From Plantibacter flavus (GTDB taxonomy: Bacteria; Actinomycetota; Actinomycetes; Actinomycetales; Microbacteriaceae), in contig NZ_FXAP01000005.1 of the NCBI RefSeq assembly GCF_900177615.1, forward strand, positions 1 to 64,000: a stretch of 64,000 nt of DNA. The letters run 5' to 3'. Position 1 is the stretch's first letter. Each line of letters begins with the position of its first letter. The notes under the pieces are model-generated. The model did not search any database. It was not told the DNA's origin and saw nothing but the letters and a program-made list of their open reading frames with translations. Shown in pieces: positions 12,682-17,088 of this stretch. Made by a program: the position numbers and the translations under genes.

Positions 12682-13371
12682 CTACGACGACGAGGATGCC
12701 GACGAATCCGCGCCCGGAGCAGCCCGCTCCGCGATGAGCGCGGCCTGCACCCGCGACCGTGCGTCGAGCTTCACGAGGATCCGGGACACGTGCGTGCGGG
12801 CCGTCGCCTCGGACAGCCCGAGCGCGGTCGCGATCCCCGCGTTGCTCAGCCCCTCGCGCAGCTGCTCGAGGACCTCACGCTCCCGCGGCGTCAGCGTGGC
12901 CAGACCGGGGTGCGCCGGAGCCGGCGCCGGCGCGACCGGAGGTCTGGCCGCGGCGAGACGTTCGAGGACTCGGCGGGTCACCTCCGGGGCGAGCACCGCC
13001 TCGCCCGCGTGCACCCGTCGGATCGCATCGACGAGGCCGGCAGCGGAGACCGTCTTCACCAGGAAGGCGTTCGCCCCGGCCGCCAGCGCCTCGTCGACGT
13101 ACCGATCGAGTGCGAAGGTGGTGAGCATGATGATGCTCGGCGGTGGGGTGGCCGCGGCGAGGATGGCCGGGATCGCGTCGATCCCTGAGGCACGCGGCAT
13201 CTGGACGTCGAGCAACACGACGTCCGGTCGGTGTCGCACGGCTTGAGCGACGACGGCCTCCCCGTCCGCCGCCTCGGCGATGACCAGGATGTCGTCCGGC
13301 TCCTCGAGCAGCGCTCCGAGACCCGCTCTGACGGCCGCATGGTCGTCCGCGATGAGGACCGTGATGGTCAT
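12682..13371 (-). CDS. NarL/FixJ-family response regulator
   Basis: A 229-residue transcription regulator. Receiver domain at 1-120 with acidic pocket 'ADD' (8-10), phospho-acceptor D55 in 'DVVLLDVQMP' and the conserved lysine in 'FLVKTVSA'. A Pro/Ala linker leads to a LuxR-type HTH at about 155-215 ('LTPREREVLEQLREGLSNAG'). It overlaps the kinase gene by four bases (ATGA). The stimulus and targets are unknown; neighbours do not reveal them. The C-terminus is a serine-rich tail. Confidence 0.92.
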   Translation of the reverse strand: MTITVLIADDHAAVRAGLGALLEEPDDILVIAEAADGEAVVAQAVRHRPDVVLLDVQMPRASGIDAIPAILAAATPPPSIIMLTTFALDRYVDEALAAGANAFLVKTVSAAGLVDAIRRVHAGEAVLAPEVTRRVLERLAAARPPVAPAPAPAHPGLATLTPREREVLEQLREGLSNAGIATALGLSEATARTHVSRILVKLDARSRVQAALIAERAAPGADSSASSSS

Positions 13372-14651
13372 GACGCCCCTCCTGCGGTGACGACCGCGGG
13401 GGTGGCCGGCGACACCGGGGTCGGCACGGTGAGCGCCGTCCGCCAGTCGGGACCGTCCGGCCCCGCGACGAGGTCGCCTCCGACCAGACGTGCCCGCTCG
13501 GCCAGGCCGACGAGGCCGACCCCGCCGGACCCGGCGAGCGCCGAAGACGCGGTCGCCGTCGGCAGCGGGTTGCTGAGCGTGACGGACAGGGCACCGGGCG
13601 GGAGCGAGACCTCGACCCGCACGGAGGCTCCCGGTGCGTGCTTCGCGGTGTTCGTCAGGCCTTCGACGAGCGTGCGGAGCCCGACGATCGAGGTCTGCGC
13701 GGGCACCTCGGCGAGCGCCGCGTCGTCCGGTGCCCGTACCTTCACCTCCAGCCCATTGGCACGGGCGACCTCGACCGCGCGGCGGACCGACTCGGCCGTG
13801 AGTCGATCTGGTGCCTGGGCCAGGTCGTCGGCCGACTGGTCACCGCGGAGCACGTCGATCATCGTGCGCATGTCGGCGAGCGCGTCGAGACTGCTGGTCC
13901 GGACGAGTGCGAGGCTACGCCGCAGCGCCACCGGGTCGGTGCCGTCGCGTCGTTCCAGGGCCGCCGCCGACTGCATCGCGATCGCCGAGAGGTGACCGGC
14001 GATGACGTCGTGCAGCTCCCGGCTGAGCTCGAGCCGTTCACGGGTCACGGCGTCCTGCCGGAGCGCAGCCGCCGCCTGGGCGATCGTGTCCGCGCGCTCG
14101 CGCTGGCGTTCGGCCTCGAGACGGGGGTACCGGACCATCCTGCCGTACCAGATCGAACTCGCCAGGATGACCGGGACGATGATGAGCGAGCCGAGGACCA
14201 CTCCGCGACCGAGCCGGGTGACGGCCTCGACGTCGTCGGTGAACCAGATCACCGCGAAGACACCGACCGACACGACGGCGAGCGCGGTGCAGGCGAACGC
14301 GGCGACGTCCATGACCCGGGACCGCGAGTAGAGTGCCGCCGCATAGGCGAGGTCGGACACGACGATGAGCATCCCGAGGCCGCTGCCTCCGGTGGTGAGC
14401 GCCTCGGCGAGGGCGATCAGGACGCCGACGCCCAGCGTGGTCAACGGGCGTCGGCGGCGGAGCAGGTGCACCGCCAGGATGGCCGTGAGGAACGCGAGCG
14501 TGATGAGGAGCGGCGGTTCCGACACGGTCGTCCCCCAGGGGACATGGATCCCGAGGAGGGCGAACAGGAGTCCCATGGCCGCGCACACCGTGGTGATGAC
14601 CGGCTCGCGGTGTCGATCCACCCATGCGCGCGGTCCTTCGAGAGCAGCCAT
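13368..14651 (-). CDS. NarL-family sensor histidine kinase
   Basis: A 427-residue membrane sensor kinase. About six hydrophobic segments fill residues 18-170, without a large extracellular loop, then a HisKA_3 dimerisation region with phosphorylated H214 in 'SRELHDVIAGHL', then an ATPase domain with 'EGLTNTAKHAPGA' and 'GLVGLAERARLVGG'. The ATG at 14651 was chosen because residues upstream of it look non-coding; GGAGGT immediately before it is closer than ideal for ribosome binding, so the start is less certain. A sensor of this shape usually detects membrane or lipid-soluble signals. Confidence 0.88.
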   Translation of the reverse strand: MAALEGPRAWVDRHREPVITTVCAAMGLLFALLGIHVPWGTTVSEPPLLITLAFLTAILAVHLLRRRRPLTTLGVGVLIALAEALTTGGSGLGMLIVVSDLAYAAALYSRSRVMDVAAFACTALAVVSVGVFAVIWFTDDVEAVTRLGRGVVLGSLIIVPVILASSIWYGRMVRYPRLEAERQRERADTIAQAAAALRQDAVTRERLELSRELHDVIAGHLSAIAMQSAAALERRDGTDPVALRRSLALVRTSSLDALADMRTMIDVLRGDQSADDLAQAPDRLTAESVRRAVEVARANGLEVKVRAPDDAALAEVPAQTSIVGLRTLVEGLTNTAKHAPGASVRVEVSLPPGALSVTLSNPLPTATASSALAGSGGVGLVGLAERARLVGGDLVAGPDGPDWRTALTVPTPVSPATPAVVTAGGAS

Positions 14652-14791
14652 ACCTCCATCACACCAGCTCGCGCCGTGCGGCGCGAGCGTCGGAGGGACG
14701 AGCCCGCGTACGCAGTTCCGCTGACCCCGTCGCCGGAGGATCAGCAGCACGGTCGATGTGGCACGGCATCACCCCGCGACACCATCGGAAC

Positions 14792-15439
14792 ATGGACAGC
14801 TTCACTGAACTCTTCGGCACGAGCCCACTCATCTGGGCCATCCTCGGCGCGGAGGCCGCGTTCTGGATCCTCCTCTTCGGCGGGCTCGCGGTCCGCTACC
14901 TCCTCCGGCGGCGCCGGCTCAGCGCGATCATGTTGATCGGTGTACCGGTCGTGGACCTCGTCCTCCTGGTCCTGACCGCGACCGACCTCGCGTCCGGCGA
15001 GGAGCCCAACGTCACGCACCTCCTCGCGACCATCTACCTGGGCTTCACGGTGGCGTTCGGCCACGCGCTCATCACGAAGGCGGACGTCTGGTTCGCACAC
15101 CGGTTCGCGGGCGGTCCAGCACCGCGGCCGAAGCCGAAGTCCGGGCCAGCGTACGTCCGGGCCGCCTGGTCGGAGTGGCGTCGGGTGGTCCTCGCCGTCG
15201 CGATCGCGGTCGCCGGGCTCCTTGCGATGCAGGCCATGGTCGGCTGGACCGTCCCCGCGTCCTTCGCCCTCGCGAACGAGGACGTCATCTGGGGCATGAT
15301 CATCAAGCTCGTCGCGATCACCGGCATCTGGTTCGCCGCAGGCCCGGTGTACGCCGTCCTCTTCCGGAGCGCCGCGCCCGCTTCTGACACCACGGAGCGG
15401 GTTTCGGATTCCATTCCGACATCTCAGGGGCGTCCCTAA
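14792..15439 (+). CDS. polytopic membrane protein of unknown function
   Basis: A 215-residue protein starting at the ATG for 'MDSFTELFGTSPLIW'. Hydrophobic segments lie near residues 12-35, 44-65, 75-98, 133-155 and 168-195, so it is an integral membrane protein with five or six helices and a charged loop 'PRPKPKSGPAYVRAAWSEWRR'. No family motif is recognised. It is divergent from the histidine kinase (140-base gap) and could be its target or partner. It ends 36 bases before the HTH-MurA gene on the same strand. Confidence 0.75.
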   Translation: MDSFTELFGTSPLIWAILGAEAAFWILLFGGLAVRYLLRRRRLSAIMLIGVPVVDLVLLVLTATDLASGEEPNVTHLLATIYLGFTVAFGHALITKADVWFAHRFAGGPAPRPKPKSGPAYVRAAWSEWRRVVLAVAIAVAGLLAMQAMVGWTVPASFALANEDVIWGMIIKLVAITGIWFAAGPVYAVLFRSAAPASDTTERVSDSIPTSQGRP

Positions 15440-15444
15440 CGGCG

Positions 15445-15468
15445 CTCTATCTCATATCTGAGATAGAG
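15445..15468. promoter_or_regulatory. perfect palindromic operator before the HTH-MurA gene
   Basis: CTCTATCTCA (15445-15454) and its exact complement TGAGATAGAG (15459-15468) are separated by TATC. It ends seven bases before the ATG at 15476. TAGAGT (15464-15469) within the right arm lies six bases before the ATG and is the likely -10 box of a leaderless transcript, so a protein bound here would block transcription. The gene just downstream encodes an N-terminal XRE-type HTH, the obvious candidate to bind. Confidence 0.75.
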
Positions 15469-15475
15469 TGACGAC

Positions 15476-17035
15476 ATGGAAGACACGGCAACGTTTGAAC
15501 GAACGGACCCCGCGGCACCGCTTCGGCAGGTCGGAGCACTCATCCGCGGCGCCCGTCAGGGACGCAAACTCACCCAGGCCCAGCTGGCGGAACGCGTCGG
15601 CACGAGCCAGAGCGCGATCAACCGGATCGAGCAGGGCAGTCAGAACATCAGCATCGACCTCCTGAGCCGGATCAGCACCGCGCTCGAGAGTGAGATCGTC
15701 AGTTTCGGCGAACAGAAGAAGAACTCGCACCTCCGCGTGCAGGGCGGCCGACAGTTGCACGGGACCATCGCGGTGCGTTCGAGCAAGAACGCCTCGGTCG
15801 CGCTCCTGTGCGCCGCGCTCATGAACCGCGGCCGCACCACGCTGCACGGTATCGCCCGGATCGTCGAGGTCGACCGCATCATCGACGTCCTGCGCAGCCT
15901 GGGCGTCTCCGTGGTCTGGTCGCCGGACGGCCAGGACGTCGAGATCCACGTCCCGGACGACCTCTCACTCGAGAGCATCGACGAGGACGCCGGTCGCCGG
16001 ACCCGCAGTGTGCTCATGTTCCTCGGTCCGCTGCTCGGCCGCTACGACACCTTCGCCCTCCCCTACGCCGGTGGTTGCGACCTCGGGACCCGCACCGTCG
16101 AACCGCACCTCATCGCGCTCCGGCCGTTCGGCCTGTCCATCGAGGCGACCGCCGGCTGGTACCAGGCCACCGTCGCCCCCGACGTGCCCGAGGAGCTGAC
16201 CGTCGTGCTCACCGAGCGGGGCGACACCGTGACCGAGAACGCCGTCATGGCCGCCGCGGTACGCGACGGTGTGACGACCATCCGCAACGCCAGCCCGAAC
16301 TACATGGTGCAGGACCTCTGCTTCTACCTGGAGCTCCTCGGCATCACCATCGAGGGCATCGGGAGCACGACGCTCCGGATCACCGGCCGCAGCGTCATCA
16401 ACGAGGACGTGGACTACTGGCCGAGTGAGGACCCGGTGGAGGCGATGAGTCTGCTCACCGCCGGGATCGTCACCGACTCGGAGATCACCGTCACCCGGGT
16501 GCCGATCGAGTTCATGGAGATCGAGCTCGCGACGCTCGGCGAGATGGGACTGCGCTACACCCGCTCCCCCGAGTACGCGGCGGCGAACGGTCGAACCCGC
16601 CTCGTCGACGTCACCGTGCACCCCTCGAAGCTGCACGCCCCGATCGACAAGATCCACCCCATGCCGTTCCCGGGGCTCAACATCGACAACCTCCCGTTCT
16701 TCGCGGTCATCGCGGCCTGCGCCGACGGCGACACGCTCATCCACGACTGGGTGTACGAGGGCAGGGCGATCCACCTCACCGACCTGACGCGACTCGGTGC
16801 GAACGTCCGCCTGCGCGACCCGCACCGCATCGACGTCTCCGGGCCGACGCACTGGTCCGGCGCCGAGGTGAGCTGCCCTCCCGCGCTGCGACCGGCCGTC
16901 GTCATCCTGCTCGCCATGCTCGCCGCGAAGGGCACGAGCGTGCTCCGGAACGTCGACATCATCGCTCGGGGGTACGAGCAGCTGCAGGAGCGGCTCATCA
17001 CCCTGGGTGCGTCGATCGAGACCTTCCGCGACTGA
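15476..17035 (+). CDS. fusion of XRE-type HTH domain and MurA-like enolpyruvyl transferase
   Basis: A 519-residue protein. Residues 17-72 are a clear XRE/Cro HTH ('KLTQAQLAERVGTSQSAINR'), followed from about residue 85 by a full UDP-N-acetylglucosamine 1-carboxyvinyltransferase fold. MurA active residues are recognisable: K104/N105 in 'SSKNAS', R177, C201 and R206 in 'GGCDLGTRTVEPH', D404 in 'FPGLNIDNLP', R430 in 'EGRAIHL', R498 in 'ARGYEQL'. The usual 'TDLRAS' motif reads 'PALRPA' (469-474), so the Asp before the Leu-Arg is an Ala. Ordinary MurA is about 420 residues with no HTH. I infer either a cell-wall precursor enzyme that represses its own gene or a regulator using a MurA fold as ligand sensor. 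A separate standard murA is expected elsewhere. Confidence 0.88.
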   Translation: MEDTATFERTDPAAPLRQVGALIRGARQGRKLTQAQLAERVGTSQSAINRIEQGSQNISIDLLSRISTALESEIVSFGEQKKNSHLRVQGGRQLHGTIAVRSSKNASVALLCAALMNRGRTTLHGIARIVEVDRIIDVLRSLGVSVVWSPDGQDVEIHVPDDLSLESIDEDAGRRTRSVLMFLGPLLGRYDTFALPYAGGCDLGTRTVEPHLIALRPFGLSIEATAGWYQATVAPDVPEELTVVLTERGDTVTENAVMAAAVRDGVTTIRNASPNYMVQDLCFYLELLGITIEGIGSTTLRITGRSVINEDVDYWPSEDPVEAMSLLTAGIVTDSEITVTRVPIEFMEIELATLGEMGLRYTRSPEYAAANGRTRLVDVTVHPSKLHAPIDKIHPMPFPGLNIDNLPFFAVIAACADGDTLIHDWVYEGRAIHLTDLTRLGANVRLRDPHRIDVSGPTHWSGAEVSCPPALRPAVVILLAMLAAKGTSVLRNVDIIARGYEQLQERLITLGASIETFRD

Positions 17036-17055: not shown

Positions 17056-17088
17056 GCGGCCCCGCAGATCATCGATCCGCGGGGCCGC
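17056..17088. terminator. bidirectional terminator between HTH-MurA gene and pheT
   Basis: GCGGCCCCGC (17056-17065) pairs with GCGGGGCCGC (17079-17088); inside, GATC pairs with GATC around ATC. It sits in the 73-base gap between two convergent genes, so it can serve both. Confidence 0.75.

Follow-up and report, generated by a model that had tools for sequence, protein, structure and literature searches.

An XRE helix-turn-helix fused to MurA in actinomycetes: a probable enzyme and autorepressor with a conserved putative operator

The window, the whole 64,000-nucleotide stretch of Plantibacter flavus DNA analysed here, contains a gene whose product joins an XRE helix-turn-helix (HTH) to a complete MurA-like enzyme (Table 1). 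The initial annotation had read this fusion, called HTH-MurA below, from the letters alone, and Pfam and an AlphaFold model confirm it. The Pfam family HTH_3 matches residues 23-73 with 49.3 bits (cut-off 23), as expected of an XRE domain. EPSP_synthase (PF00275) matches residues 88-507 with 138.5 bits (cut-off 22.8), and its profile is covered end to end (1-417 of 417). The AlphaFold model has a mean pLDDT of 87.7 and is confident except at residues 1-10 and 75-82. Its HTH helices span residues 14-29, 34-41, 45-52, and 60-70, and the recognition helix is taken, from the HTH fold, to lie at about residues 43-52 (TSQSAINRIE). The MurA part overlays on MurA 1eyn with a Z score of 46.2 and an rmsd of 2.0 over 414 aligned residues; the query for the VIA list of structural matches was residues 82-519 only.

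Table 1. Coordinates of the features discussed. Positions are those of the window unless a genome and contig are given.
Feature	Position	Strand	Detail	Basis
Putative operator, perfect palindrome	15445..15468	.	10+4+10	Sequence; orthologue comparison
Operator core TATCTCA-N4-TGAGATA	15448-15465	.	Within the palindrome	
Predicted -10 element TAGAGT	15464..15469	+	Overlaps right half-site; start codon 6 nt later	
HTH-MurA gene	15476..17035	+	519 aa; starts with ATG; coordinates include stop	ORF reading, Pfam
XRE helix-turn-helix domain	15524..15694	+	Residues 17-73	Pfam HTH_3, HTH_31
Linker, probably flexible	15698..15721	+	Residues 75-82	pLDDT <50 in AlphaFold model
Complete MurA (enolpyruvyl transferase) domain	15722..17032	+	Residues 83-519	Structural match to 1eyn
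Codon of Cys201	16076..16078	+	Equivalent to E. coli MurA Cys115	Alignment, Cys in 188/188
TATCTCGA-like sites, family f21	G423:C1:6635292, G505:C22:58612, G526:C1:2346217			

Just upstream of HTH-MurA, a putative membrane protein is encoded at 14624-15439 on the + strand; this open reading frame has no Pfam or NCBIfam match in the region from 14792 on. A response regulator (receiver and LuxR-type HTH) and a HisKA_3 sensor kinase, both recognised by Pfam, lie at 12682-14750 on the - strand. Downstream, a G+C-rich inverted repeat at 17056-17088 (GCGGCCCCGC ... GCGGGGCCGC) separates HTH-MurA from convergent genes resembling pheT/pheS by eye, and it is possibly a shared terminator.

The gap between the previous stop codon and the HTH-MurA start is 36 bases and is mostly filled by a 24-bp palindrome, CTCTATCTCA-TATC-TGAGATAGAG. 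The perfect 10+4+10 palindrome reported before the start in the initial annotation is indeed there, exact by direct reading and by script, although a repeat finder run over 15200-15700 did not list it. Taken alone, perfect arms of 10 bp are fairly common in this DNA (12 listed matches, about six of them distinct, vs 0-3 in five shuffles). The weight of the operator palindrome comes from the comparison of orthologues. Its G+C content is 38%, and that of the other palindromes with 10-bp arms is 68-86%.

The comparison drew on 195 orthologous loci, seven from species of the genus Plantibacter, 108 from further genomes of the order, and 80 from named genera, the best 80 of 590 listed (Mycetocola, Curtobacterium, Cellulomonas, Geodermatophilus, Nocardioides, Streptomyces, and others). 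These loci encode 191 distinct proteins, and TATCTCA-N4-TGAGATA was sought in the 250 bp before codon 18, allowing up to three mismatches. The initial annotation had tied its case to a palindrome upstream of orthologues, and such a site is kept in 180 of the 191: 62 are exact, 65 have one mismatch, 30 two, and 23 three, with 11 worse. The reversed pattern found none of the 191 at up to four mismatches, and shuffled upstream regions gave none at up to three. As a further control, the opening 250 bp of each gene were searched, with three matches (two at two mismatches and one at three). The conserved core is shorter than the 10-bp arms in the window, and the outer pairs vary within the genus, being changed on both sides in L037 and L040. 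Against the reading as an autorepressor, several of the 11 proteins lacking a site at up to three mismatches have an ordinary-looking HTH (e.g., L171, L228, and L235). In 82 of the 195 loci (flanks of 1.5 to 4 kb), no conserved operon partner was seen, and the commonest neighbour cluster occurs in nine. Shared synteny therefore does not explain the conservation of the operator.

HTH-MurA is present in 109 of 396 genomes of the order. In a phylum sample it occurs in six of 159 genomes, all in the window's class: G000, G005, and G034 within the window's order, and three in family f21 outside it. All seven species of the window's genus carry it, and it is absent from the family's 33 other genomes in the order sample. 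Loci from Curtobacterium, Mycetocola, and Pseudoclavibacter also carry HTH-MurA; at a guess based on similarity, these genera would belong to the window's family.

The palindrome also holds a largely fixed position relative to the predicted promoter. The initial annotation had placed it over a predicted -10 box, and the same register recurs among orthologues: TAnnnT begins at operator offset 16 in 160 of the 180 sites, and a start codon in frame follows after 6-8 nt. Conservation reaches 92% for the T at offset 21, which lies beyond the conserved core. No clear -35 element was seen for the HTH-MurA promoter; the -35 region would overlap the 3' end of the membrane-protein frame. Since the start codon in the window follows the predicted -10 element by 6 nt, the transcript is likely leaderless. 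Repression is the natural reading of this arrangement because a dimer on the site would cover the -10 element and the spacer.

The predicted operator appears to serve one gene. The exact site has one copy in the 4.3-Mb genome, where one further site with two mismatches lies elsewhere; a control pattern likewise finds one. When the 396 genomes of the order are compared, a site with no more than one mismatch is present in 73 of 109 carriers vs 23 of 287 non-carriers (p = 6e-32), and in 69 of the 109 carriers such a site lies within 250 bp upstream of HTH-MurA. Outside that interval the rate is equal in the two groups (nine sites in 109 carriers, 24 in 287 non-carriers), so no wider regulon is seen at this threshold. 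A search at two mismatches covered 19 carriers, each with exactly one site at zero or one mismatch, and a twentieth genome, G215, which is a non-carrier. The HTH-MurA gene thus looks like essentially the sole target of its predicted operator-binding head.

Changes in the recognition helix and in the operator go together. All five proteins with S46G in the helix have a symmetric operator of the form AACTCA..TGAGTT, which precedes none of the other 183 (Fisher 5e-10 for 188 proteins, a statistic that ignores relatedness). The family tree places three operator changes among the S46G cases, all within one clade, which limits their independence. L096 combines a unique helix (TTQSVV) with the symmetric operator TATCGCA..TGCGATA. 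L232 and L242, the only two full-length proteins with a rewritten helix, both lack an operator, and in L246 HTH and operator are both gone and the MurA frame is open. Together, the conservation of the operator, its register with the -10 element, the near-unique site, and the co-variation of helix and operator make autorepression very likely, and they give strong support to the self-repression put forward in the initial annotation.

The enzyme half was compared with E. coli K-12 MurA in an alignment of 188 family members. Nine residues, K22, N23, R91, C115, R120, D305, R331, R371, and R397 in E. coli numbering, are invariant in all 188; we take them to have catalytic or PEP-site roles. The PEP site is intact, and the loop presumed to contact UDP is changed. 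The MurA half would be more than a sensor and is very probably a working enzyme, because these residues are invariant and because the searches turned up no other MurA homologue in many genomes.

A search for a second, standard murA in the window's genome, as suggested with the initial annotation, found one (G000:C10:696628-697917). In this organism, HTH-MurA is proposed to be a second, regulated MurA beside the standard one. Many other carriers differ. Canonical MurA, counted as absent when the assembly gives no match better than E 1e-100, is missing from 47 of 109 carriers vs four of 287 non-carriers, and those four are assemblies of 170-580 contigs. In 42 of the 109 carriers of the order, HTH-MurA is the only MurA homologue found at 1e-10. 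These carriers fall in families f9, f11, f14, f15, and f18, and single-contig assemblies among them include G386, G242, G120, G077, G223, and G359. The search scored at most four candidates per genome, and scoring every candidate agreed for 18 of the 42. For 12 of the 42, all PF00275 proteins were counted, and each genome has exactly two, HTH-MurA and a far stronger one (E <1e-100), presumably AroA. G000 and G116, which keep the standard MurA, have three PF00275 proteins each. Among the 42, G034 and G266 have HTH-MurA in two pieces, maybe through assembly error, and G010 is only 91% complete. Five carriers (G004, G213, G333, G368, and G395) have no canonical MurA and a divergent second homologue (E 1e-53 to 1e-63); they were left out of this count. 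In the sole-MurA bacteria, HTH-MurA would make enolpyruvyl-UDP-GlcNAc, unless peptidoglycan is absent or a MurA escaped the searches. A decay of the operator once HTH-MurA is the only MurA was considered and set aside, as operator quality does not differ significantly between these and other carriers (p = 0.15; 0.07 for sites with at most one mismatch).

We favour, with a probability of about 0.74, the reading that HTH-MurA is bifunctional, both an enzyme and an autorepressor. Its C-terminal domain would catalyse enolpyruvyl transfer, with PEP as the donor and UDP-GlcNAc as the acceptor. As a dimer, the N-terminal XRE domain would occupy the palindrome over the -10 element of its own leaderless promoter, where the bound dimer would block RNA polymerase. 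With its own gene as essentially the sole target, the circuit would set the level of HTH-MurA itself. DNA binding, dimerisation, repression rather than activation, the transcript start, and catalysis are all parts that we infer from sequence and model. Occupancy of the MurA site by PEP, UDP-GlcNAc, or product might further alter the predicted DNA binding, such that the enzyme would be made on precursor demand; this addition stands close to an even bet, on its lower side. UDP-GlcNAc or PEP is a plausible signal to the predicted repressor.

MurA catalyses the first committed step of peptidoglycan synthesis and is the enzyme that fosfomycin targets. It is a tentative extension, with chances short of even, that in many actinomycetes the committed step of this pathway is run by a trigger enzyme whose MurA active site gates an HTH on the promoter of its own murA gene, in some genomes the sole one. 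If so, the first enzyme of the cell wall would read precursor supply directly and adjust its own amount without needing a separate sensor, and occupancy by fosfomycin might also gate the HTH. A sole, self-repressing MurA in many actinomycetes would change how murA control is read there, and the list of essential cell-wall genes would likewise have to be reread. When the protein is annotated simply as a second MurA, the DNA-binding head is lost from view, and so are the genomes in which no other MurA was found. The proposed circuit of one protein and one site can be tested in vitro.

The most serious alternative, credible at odds clearly below even, is plain negative feedback, in which the HTH simply caps the amount of this MurA and receives no signal from the enzyme domain. 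This explanation accounts for the operator and promoter evidence equally well, and the low-confidence, probably flexible linker makes coupling between the two domains less than obvious. However, a separate small repressor would suffice for such feedback, and the HTH is kept on the same polypeptide as MurA in 108 of the 109 carriers in the order sample.

It is unlikely that the enolpyruvyl transferase uses an acceptor other than UDP-GlcNAc and that the operator controls the corresponding side pathway. This idea draws on the differences from ordinary MurA. E. coli KVSVG (160-164), residues that are presumably UDP contacts, is replaced by ERGDT, E188/E190 by N/M, and D369 by P, each in all 188 family members. 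HTH-MurA also scores 281.1 bits on TIGR01072, the NCBIfam MurA equivalog, below the cut-off of 392.7, which the standard MurA of the same genome passes with 421.8; it scores just above the threshold of the PRK09369 subfamily model (298.7 vs 297). The replaced residues and the low TIGR01072 score also weigh against the favoured reading. The structural matches include NikO (4fqd), an enzyme that acts on a uridine nucleotide. However, the same invariant loop is present where HTH-MurA is the only MurA homologue found (42 of 109 carriers), and the flanks covered show no accompanying pathway genes. The view that HTH-MurA is not a UDP-GlcNAc enzyme, drawn from the loop changes, was demoted once the sole-MurA genomes were found.

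It is very improbable that the palindrome is the site of another regulator or a DNA or RNA structure with no connection to HTH-MurA. A+T-rich palindromes of this form could bind other dimeric factors, but helix and operator co-vary and are lost together, and the site stands beside the HTH-MurA gene and occurs elsewhere only at the background rate. An RNA structure would also conflict with a transcript that seems to begin at the start codon or close to it, which would leave the site outside the mRNA. Least probable of all is a catalytically dead MurA domain that only gates the repressor, for which BzdR and its reported loss of activity offer a precedent (PMC3602430), since the nine PEP-site and catalytic residues are invariant, 42 genomes have no other MurA homologue found, and a dead sensor whose sole target is its own gene would have no output.

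BzdR of Azoarcus is a fusion of an XRE head to shikimate kinase, and its evolution reportedly required the enzyme activity to be lost; it shows how an enzyme fold with an XRE head can turn into a repressor that responds to a metabolite (PMC3602430). Like HTH-MurA, it has an XRE head, a linker, and the fold of a small-molecule enzyme. Unlike HTH-MurA, which keeps its catalytic residues and apparently targets only itself, BzdR controls a catabolic operon and is reportedly enzyme-dead. The NCBIfam model for the BzdR-like group, NF006015, matches HTH-MurA at residues 11-88 only, with 36.9 bits vs a threshold of 204. Ordinary MurA shares the fold and the PEP-site residues with HTH-MurA but lacks the HTH and differs in the UDP-contact loop and at D369. 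PutA, BirA, and NadR are active enzymes that repress their own gene or operon. Their folds and pathways differ from those of HTH-MurA, and none of the three is known to work in the committed step of peptidoglycan synthesis.

Among the literature matches listed, neither the HTH-MurA fusion nor its operator is described, and the gene appears only as a Streptomyces 'MurA2'. SCO5998 of Streptomyces coelicolor is called MurA2, adjoins the aconitase gene SCO5999, and has a predicted DmdR1 box (PMC12161575); a SigB-dependent promoter is also reported for it (PMC8346170). The passages on SCO5998 in these two accounts mention neither an HTH nor the operator. SCO5998 very probably belongs to the HTH-MurA family, since an aconitase gene (named by eye) lies upstream of HTH-MurA on the opposite strand in five of seven Streptomycetaceae loci. 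The reported SigB promoter and the predicted DmdR1 box suggest that self-repression would not be the sole input at SCO5998. The SigB promoter was also sought in 16 Streptomycetaceae loci, where the best match has 9 mismatches in 36.

Two other kinds of palindrome were noted near carriers' genes. Different palindromes, TATCTCGA-like and of the CTCGA..TCGAG type, precede an icd-like gene in each of the three g32 genomes that the order sample contains; by eye, this gene encodes a monomeric isocitrate dehydrogenase (L252, L253, and L254). In three genomes of family f21, which are probably Streptomyces, TATCTCGA-like sites also lie at a distance of 0.7-5 kb from HTH-MurA. They were considered as second targets of HTH-MurA and rejected: they look like another regulator's sites and persist in G034, although its HTH-MurA frame is broken and its own operator gone. 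We suspect TamR, a MarR protein, as their regulator. TamR is reported to repress the aconitase gene among others (PMC5487221).

The second kind, TATCTCACACGTGAGTTA, occurs in genus g62, where HTH-MurA is the only MurA found. G122 and G224 of this genus have no such site. In three species it precedes a gene that by eye resembles sdhC (succinate dehydrogenase cytochrome b), at about 2051 in L249, 2009 in L250, and 2045 in L251; a fourth genome, G359, also has a second site. This sdhC-side site is possibly a second target of HTH-MurA or a site of another regulator.
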